From Thermodesulfovibrionales bacterium (GTDB taxonomy: Bacteria; Nitrospirota; Thermodesulfovibrionia; Thermodesulfovibrionales; Dissulfurispiraceae): a stretch of 64,000 nt of DNA. Shown one piece after another: positions 6,556-7,916 of the stretch. The notes beneath the pieces are model-generated. The model worked only from the letters and a program-made list of their open reading frames with translations, was not told the DNA's origin and did no database searches. The stretch covers positions 1 through 64,000 of the forward strand of contig JAOAHE010000004.1 in NCBI GenBank assembly GCA_026415415.1. The letters run 5' to 3'. A program made the position numbers and the translations under genes. How positions within the stretch are numbered: position 1 is the stretch's first letter; each line of letters begins with the position of its first letter.

Positions 6556-7860
6556 TTATTTCCCGCCCTTTGCTAAATTAATCTGTTTAGTGTATTTTTT
6601 CCACATTATAGAATTATCTGGATCATCTTTTTTGCCATAGGGTAAGTACCAAAGCTCAACATCAACTATGAAATCGTAAGCTATTGGATTGCGAACTATC
6701 TTGTCATCTTTCTTTTCTTCAGTGTAAAGAGGTATCTCAAATTTCTCTACCTTTGTTTTGTTGGGATGCAAACTTGTCTCTCTTATTAAACCACTTTTCT
6801 CATAAGGTCCTCTACCCATTTTATCACCACGTCCGAACTGTTGAGGTATGGGCATATAAATCTTTTCTTTTTTGTAGATCTCTTTACCTTCTAATGTTTT
6901 TACTGATACATACAGTACCAGTCTATTTGGAGTAGGTCAGCCATCAGGTATGACATGACCAGCTTTGTTAGTAAGCTCTACTTTAACATGGGCTGCTGGA
7001 GTAGGTGTGACAACATCTCTCCATAAGTAGGCGTAAGCATCTACTTTCATATCAACAGCTTTTTCATAGAGCTCTTTACTGCGATAACTTTGCATATTAT
7101 GTCCAAGTTTTGATTCTTGGATGTGACATTGTTGACAGGTTTTGGTTCCACCTTCTGAAACATAAGACCAAAGATAGCTACCATATAAAGTAGCACATTG
7201 AGATGGATTGTCAAACTCAAAATTAGGTCCTAAGCCGTGGCACTGTCCACAGAGAATTGATTCTTTCATAACTGAGCTTTTCTTCATCTTTTTGTAAGTA
7301 GAGTCTGGATGATCACCATCTTTAGTACCATAAACTACACCTTTTTGTGGATAACCTTCTGTCCATTTATGAATTATTGCATTTCTATTATGACATACAA
7401 CACAATTGATATTTAGTTGTTGCAGTATAGCTGCTGAGTTTTCATCTCCTTCATCAACAAATTTGTAAATATGTTTGACAATCTCTTGAGCTACGCTATC
7501 TTCAGCCTCTTCCAATTGAGGCAGGTGGCACTTTGTGCATATCATAAGGTGTTTAACTCTTACATCTTCAGGTTTTTTTACACCAGATGCTTGCCAGTCC
7601 TTTAATCCAAGTTCAATAGTAGTTTTAAAAGTAGCTGCTGTCCTTCCTACGTGTTCAGGCCCAAAAATTGATCTTGCATGTAATGACTTTTTCCATTCTT
7701 CATAGATGTCAGAATGGCAGTCTTTACATGAACTTGAATCGTACATTTTTACTAATTCTGCTATTGTTTTTGCTTTTTTCGGTTTGTCCTGACTTTTTGC
7801 AAAAAGAGTCAAAGGTAACACAATAAACAACATGATTAAAAGTATCTTGAAAAACTTCAT
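6556..7860 (-). CDS. Secreted pentahaem c-type cytochrome with in-frame TGA (candidate selenoprotein)
   Basis: The frame from the ATG at 7860 runs 307 codons to a TGA at 6939-6937. It then stays open in the same frame for 126 more codons to a TAA at 6556, for 434 residues if TGA is read as an amino acid. A signal peptide (MKFFKILLIMLFIVLPLTLF) and five CxxCH haem sites (CKDCH, CTKCH, CVVCH, CGQCH, CQQCH) all precede the TGA. This points to a periplasmic electron-transfer protein like cytochrome c554-type multihaem families. The TGA sits in AGHVIPDG-TGA-PTPNRLVL, inside the post-haem domain where such cytochromes carry a conserved GH..P.G.P..R pattern. A SECIS-like hairpin follows (6902-6922). 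A strong GGGGGG-type ribosome site precedes the start. The alternatives are a nonsense mutation or a sequencing error. Confidence 0.8.
6902..6939 (-). promoter_or_regulatory. Candidate bacterial SECIS element and UGA codon
   Basis: The minus-strand RNA reads UGA (6939-6937), then 14 bases, then an 8-base-pair stem ACUGGUAC (6922-6915) with GUAUCAGU (6909-6902) enclosing the loop UGUAU. One pair is G-U. The UGA-to-loop distance is 22 bases, and G is the second loop base. Both fit the bacterial SECIS consensus, in which a short hairpin just downstream of UGA with a G at the start of the apical loop binds SelB. The fold was made by eye. Confidence 0.6.
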
Positions 7861-7862
7861 GA

Positions 7863-7916
7863 TTAATATCCCCCCTTCTTAAAAGTTAAGTTATTGTGCC
7901 TGAAAAATTTACTCAC
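7863..7916 (-). other. Possible 17-codon leader ORF with perfect Shine-Dalgarno sequence
   Basis: The minus strand at 7938-7926 carries an extended ribosome site, AAGGGAGGTGATT. It has no long gene behind it. A GTG at 7916 opens a frame of 17 codons ending in TAA at 7863, three bases before the cytochrome ATG. Spacing from the site to GTG is long (about 14 bases). This may be a leader peptide, a relic, or a chance match within the ppdK-cytochrome spacer. Confidence 0.25.

Follow-up and report, generated by a model that had tools for sequence, protein, structure and literature searches.

A multihaem cytochrome with an in-frame TGA codon was first predicted in Geobacter. In a survey of stop codons published in 2007, GSU2937 and GSU2936 were listed together as one TGA-containing cytochrome c family protein and as a selenoprotein candidate (PMC1914089). 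A study on ExtI from 2018 subsequently described extKL as the cytochrome-like selenoprotein of the ext cluster and as a candidate for selenite reduction; there, the measurements of the selenite phenotype concerned extI, and extKL was proposed from preliminary work (PMC5877670). In a mutant lacking extHIJKL, growth on Fe(III) citrate drops to about 66% of the wild-type value (PMC6148476), and the ExtKL family is listed in a 2026 review of the selenoproteome (PMC13188914). The original prediction for the locus studied here, a TGA-interrupted cytochrome gene in a window of 64,000 nucleotides from a Thermodesulfovibrionales bacterium, implied that such a protein would be new. This does not hold, given that the family was predicted in 2007 (PMC1914089), is curated as NF040886 and is present in the PDB as MccSep. 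The selenoprotein family is already known; the selenocysteine (Sec) reading is right, but not new.

Reading frame and domain organisation

The features of the locus, all on the minus strand, are as follows.

6556..7860, minus strand: extKL-type gene for a 434-residue pentahaem c-type cytochrome selenoprotein (NF040886, MccSep in the PDB, homologue column)
7870..7879, minus strand: Shine-Dalgarno-like AGAAGGGGGG, 9 nt upstream of the ATG (sequence reading)
7792..7860, minus strand: signal-peptide-like hydrophobic N-terminal segment, approximately residues 1-23 (read from the sequence; helix 2-23 in the AlphaFold model)
7123..7728, minus strand: haem region with five CxxCH motifs (residues 45, 108, 153, 204 and 242) and the non-haem Cys222 (sequence, alignment)
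6937..6939, minus strand: in-frame TGA, Sec308 (homologue column, alignment with U325 of MccSep)
6902..6922, minus strand: bacterial SECIS-like hairpin of 8 bp, ACUGGUAC-UGUAU-GUAUCAGU (folding, homologue comparison)
6559..6936, minus strand: C-terminal beta (immunoglobulin-like) extension of 126 residues (sequence, PDB alignment, homologue alignment, model)

Translation from 7860 to 6556 yields 434 codons followed by a TAA at 6558-6556, and the frame contains a single TGA at codon 308 (6939-6937; context AGHVIPDG-U-PTPNRLVL). The original prediction had left the strand unstated; a plus-strand reading of 6556..7860 was rejected, as translation there yields no frame. The frame was nevertheless described correctly as running for 126 codons past a lone TGA, which at the G+C content of the window (34%) would occur by chance with a probability of about 8e-5. 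Likewise, the predicted lack of a frameshift is borne out by one NCBIfam match spanning residues 5-429 and one PDB match spanning residues 26-434, and all five CxxCH motifs indeed lie upstream of the TGA. The C-terminal extension is made only upon UGA read-through.

According to the homologue alignment and the model, residue 308 belongs to a loop within the post-haem beta domain rather than taking the place of a haem cysteine, as had been proposed. Next to it, G301, H302 and D306 are invariant in an alignment of 24 sequences. Outside the haem motifs, only columns 222 and 308 are universally occupied by Cys or Sec, each in 41 of 41 loci. Since Cys222 is the only other universal non-haem cysteine, it is a candidate redox partner of the selenocysteine, and a Sec308-Cys222 redox pair appears possible from this conservation.

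Relation to ExtKL, MccSep and cytochrome c552

The protein matches the NCBIfam equivalog NF040886, 'multiheme c-type cytochrome (seleno)protein ExtKL', with 591 bits (cut-off 250), residues 5-429 being aligned to positions 6-422/423 of the profile; Pfam provides generic multihaem domains only. A sequence search of the PDB retrieved five entries named 'Multiheme cytochrome c selenoprotein (MccSep)' (9wt8-9wtc), aligned over residues 26-434 with an E-value of about 1e-162. A U325A mutant is among the MccSep entries, and the position of U325, given as X in one chain and as A in the mutant, coincides with residue 308. The Sec column is identical in the window protein and MccSep (9wt8/9wta/9wtb and 9wt9/9wtc), which otherwise differ by sequence changes and small gaps only. 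MccSep was recovered by this sequence search alone and is absent from the PDB matches of Foldseek, where the best fold match is the pentahaem cytochrome c552 of Thermochromatium tepidum (PDB 5ze8; E 2e-12, TM 0.53-0.58), with 17% identity to the window protein. A link between the ExtKL family and pentahaem cytochrome c552 was also drawn elsewhere (PMC11976967).

With ExtKL of Geobacter sulfurreducens (GSU2937-GSU2936) the window protein has in common the five CxxCH motifs, the single in-frame UGA, the C-terminal domain and the length class. The differences are modest and include the solitary position of the gene outside an ext cluster. On the basis of these sequence comparisons, the window gene is almost certainly an ortholog of ExtKL/MccSep whose UGA is predicted to be recoded as selenocysteine.

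Conservation of the Sec column

Sixty related genomes were searched, of which 38 contain a match above the family cut-off. The Sec column could be read in 41 loci and thus, after removal of the window itself and of one duplicate genome, in 39 homologues with identities to the window protein ranging from 91% (same genus) down to 32%. Comparison with homologues had been proposed as a check on the Sec assignment, and the column contains TGA in 32 and a Cys codon (TGC/TGT) in seven of them, with no unrelated residue in any.

The closest named record is the Thermodesulfovibrionales metagenome-assembled genome JAOAEO010000017.1, in which the gene shows about 91% identity past a frameshift in the haem region; a scan of contigs for related loci returned this congener as the only locus. 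The same-genus copy (L071:3263-4566) retains the TGA, and its frameshift is probably an assembly error. Two other relatives carry copies with an in-frame TAG in addition to the TGA (L027:1501-2568 and G027:C12:272-1378), which suggests decay or sequencing error in these copies.

A SECIS-like hairpin downstream of the UGA

In the window, the loop UGUAU of the hairpin is located 23-27 nt past the UGA. Its folding energy of -9.8 kcal/mol compares with -3.5 ± 1.9 kcal/mol in synonymous recodings, only 0.3% of which are as low. Of 33 distinct UGA sequences, 31 share five inner pairs (nt 19-23 with 32-36, counted from the U of the UGA as 0), and none of the seven Cys sequences forms them. The two exceptions are the window and its congener, in which the hairpin is formed with the register shifted by about one base. 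The register derived from the window alone was dropped as the family register, as it leaves 50% of cells paired in the relatives compared to 90% in the shared register. The third codon positions 20, 23, 26, 32 and 35 show almost no variation in UGA genes but are free in Cys genes, and in the UGA genes the third positions flanking the hairpin on both sides vary freely.

These data bear on whether the TGA is a true stop, so that the cytochrome would end after 307 residues and the frame beyond would be a remnant or a separate gene, i.e. a split into extK and extL. Older annotations of Geobacter divided the gene in this way (PMC6148476), and the five haem motifs are complete ahead of the TGA. However, the codon specifies Cys in seven relatives, only UGA genes show the hairpin and the near-invariant synonymous sites, and a Sec-containing protein of this family is in the PDB, which together render a genuine stop very improbable. 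Recoding of the UGA as selenocysteine is thus clearly preferred.

Sec decoding machinery

The same genome had been proposed for a search for selA, selB and selD, and all three genes were found above their curated cut-offs: selA at C63:68079-69437, 4 kb past the window (627 bits), selB on contig C28 (389 bits) and selD on contig C57 (L037:1396-2454; 377 bits). The selD gene itself contains an in-frame TGA (AGUASK).

A full-length tRNA-Sec(UCA) was not found in the assembly, neither by an Rfam search nor by a pattern search for an intact anticodon arm. Using the gene of a relative as query, the first 26 nt of a tRNA-Sec were located at C71:10106-10131; the contig stops 18 bases further on. Its final 19 bases (region L070:1500-1544, corresponding to G000:C71:10105-10149) read CTGTCTCTTATACACATCT, which we take to be a Nextera transposase adapter. 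Because adapter sequence ends the contig, the tRNA-Sec gene was presumably truncated during library preparation or assembly rather than being absent, and because this sequence fills the contig past the 26 nt, the anticodon is out of view in the window genome. An annotation pipeline would wrongly call tRNA-Sec missing from it. Among the relatives, 50 of 60 show a tRNA-Sec match above the cut-off, with a UCA anticodon where it could be read.

The fragmented assembly and the adapter at a contig end could also invite the view that the TGA reflects a sequencing error or a mutation in a pseudogene, but with the same TGA recurring in 32 further loci across many genera and no other lesion in the frame of the window, the probability of this is negligible. 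The assignment of the TGA as a selenocysteine codon, as originally put forward, is supported by NF040886, by U325 of MccSep, by the TGA/Cys column, by the hairpin and by the presence of selA, selB and selD.

A selC*-type tRNA-Cys in the same genome

The sole Rfam tRNA-Sec match above the cut-off in the window genome, at C58:9938, was rejected as tRNA-Sec due to its loop CUGCAAA (anticodon GCA) and its U73-CCA end. This tRNA is a selC*-type tRNA-Cys (L001:1501-1632, i.e. G000:C58:9938-10069) with GCA anticodon, U73 and encoded CCA. It measures 128 nt owing to an unusually long variable arm, compared to 94 nt for the tRNA-Sec of the relatives, and lies directly upstream of a TsuA/YeeE-like transporter gene and a double-cubane-cluster reductase gene. 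Similar selC*-like tRNAs occur in relatives, some of them adjoining a similar reductase. In one relative, the selC*-like tRNA (L110:52-143; G017:C88:5391-5482) has a GUA anticodon, normally used for tyrosine codons, in the loop CUGUAAA, keeps U73-CCA and is located upstream of a TusA-like gene.

Some selC* tRNA-Cys with UCA anticodons have been described (PMC7609411), and with a tRNA-Cys of tRNA-Sec shape present in the window genome, one could imagine that the UGA is read as cysteine. Yet the tRNA-Cys found here decodes UGC/UGU rather than UGA, close relatives possess tRNA-Sec(UCA), the window genome has the beginning of a tRNA-Sec gene, and the hairpin points to SelB, which makes a cysteine reading extremely unlikely compared to insertion of selenocysteine.

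Gene neighbourhood

Neighbours in the window are mfd, an aldolase-like gene, a deacetylase-like gene, tRNA-Lys, ppdK (pyruvate phosphate dikinase), a bioF-type gene and mraZ. Whereas Geobacter extKL is part of extHIJKLMNOPQS (PMC5877670), the window gene stands alone between ppdK and tRNA-Lys with no ext cluster around it. In the congener, the extKL-type gene likewise follows ppdK; in several other close relatives it is unlinked and has unrelated neighbours. One more distant relative, which carries the Cys version, has a Rieske protein, an ExtP-like cytochrome b and an ExtQ-like region nearby. An ExtP-like cytochrome b at C24 was rejected as evidence for an ext system, as it scores below the cut-off and adjoins a Rieske protein. 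The ext cluster is taken as typical of Geobacter, but not as defining for the ExtKL protein family.

Proteins of 95-96 amino acids with signal-like starts are encoded near the extKL homologues of three relatives (L095:9820-10110, L096:9118-9405 and L097:7447-7734). They gave no NCBIfam match and are possibly ExtJ-like.

Proposed function

The gene product would be an exported pentahaem c-type cytochrome with one selenocysteine in the GHxIPDGU loop of its C-terminal beta domain. SelB and tRNA-Sec(UCA) would recode the UGA, aided by the hairpin just 3' of it. The five haems would probably serve periplasmic electron transfer towards or away from the Sec site, where a small oxidised substrate may be reduced. 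That this substrate is a selenium or tellurium oxyanion is a tentative proposal which we consider somewhat less probable than not; selenite or tellurite is suggested by analogy with the work on the Geobacter ext cluster only. Since the window gene lies outside an ext cluster, the role in selenite reduction is not transferable from Geobacter by context. One could further speculate that the stand-alone form in Thermodesulfovibrionales is a self-contained periplasmic reductase, in which a Sec308-Cys222 selenenylsulfide would be fed by the haems independently of the Ext outer-membrane conduit, but we regard this as rather unlikely.

Conclusion

In conclusion, the comparison confirms the prediction of a selenocysteine inside a multihaem electron-transfer protein and shows this known family in bacteria related to Thermodesulfovibrionales, outside the Geobacter gene cluster. 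As a further detail, it adds the invariant non-haem Cys222, which may partner the selenocysteine.
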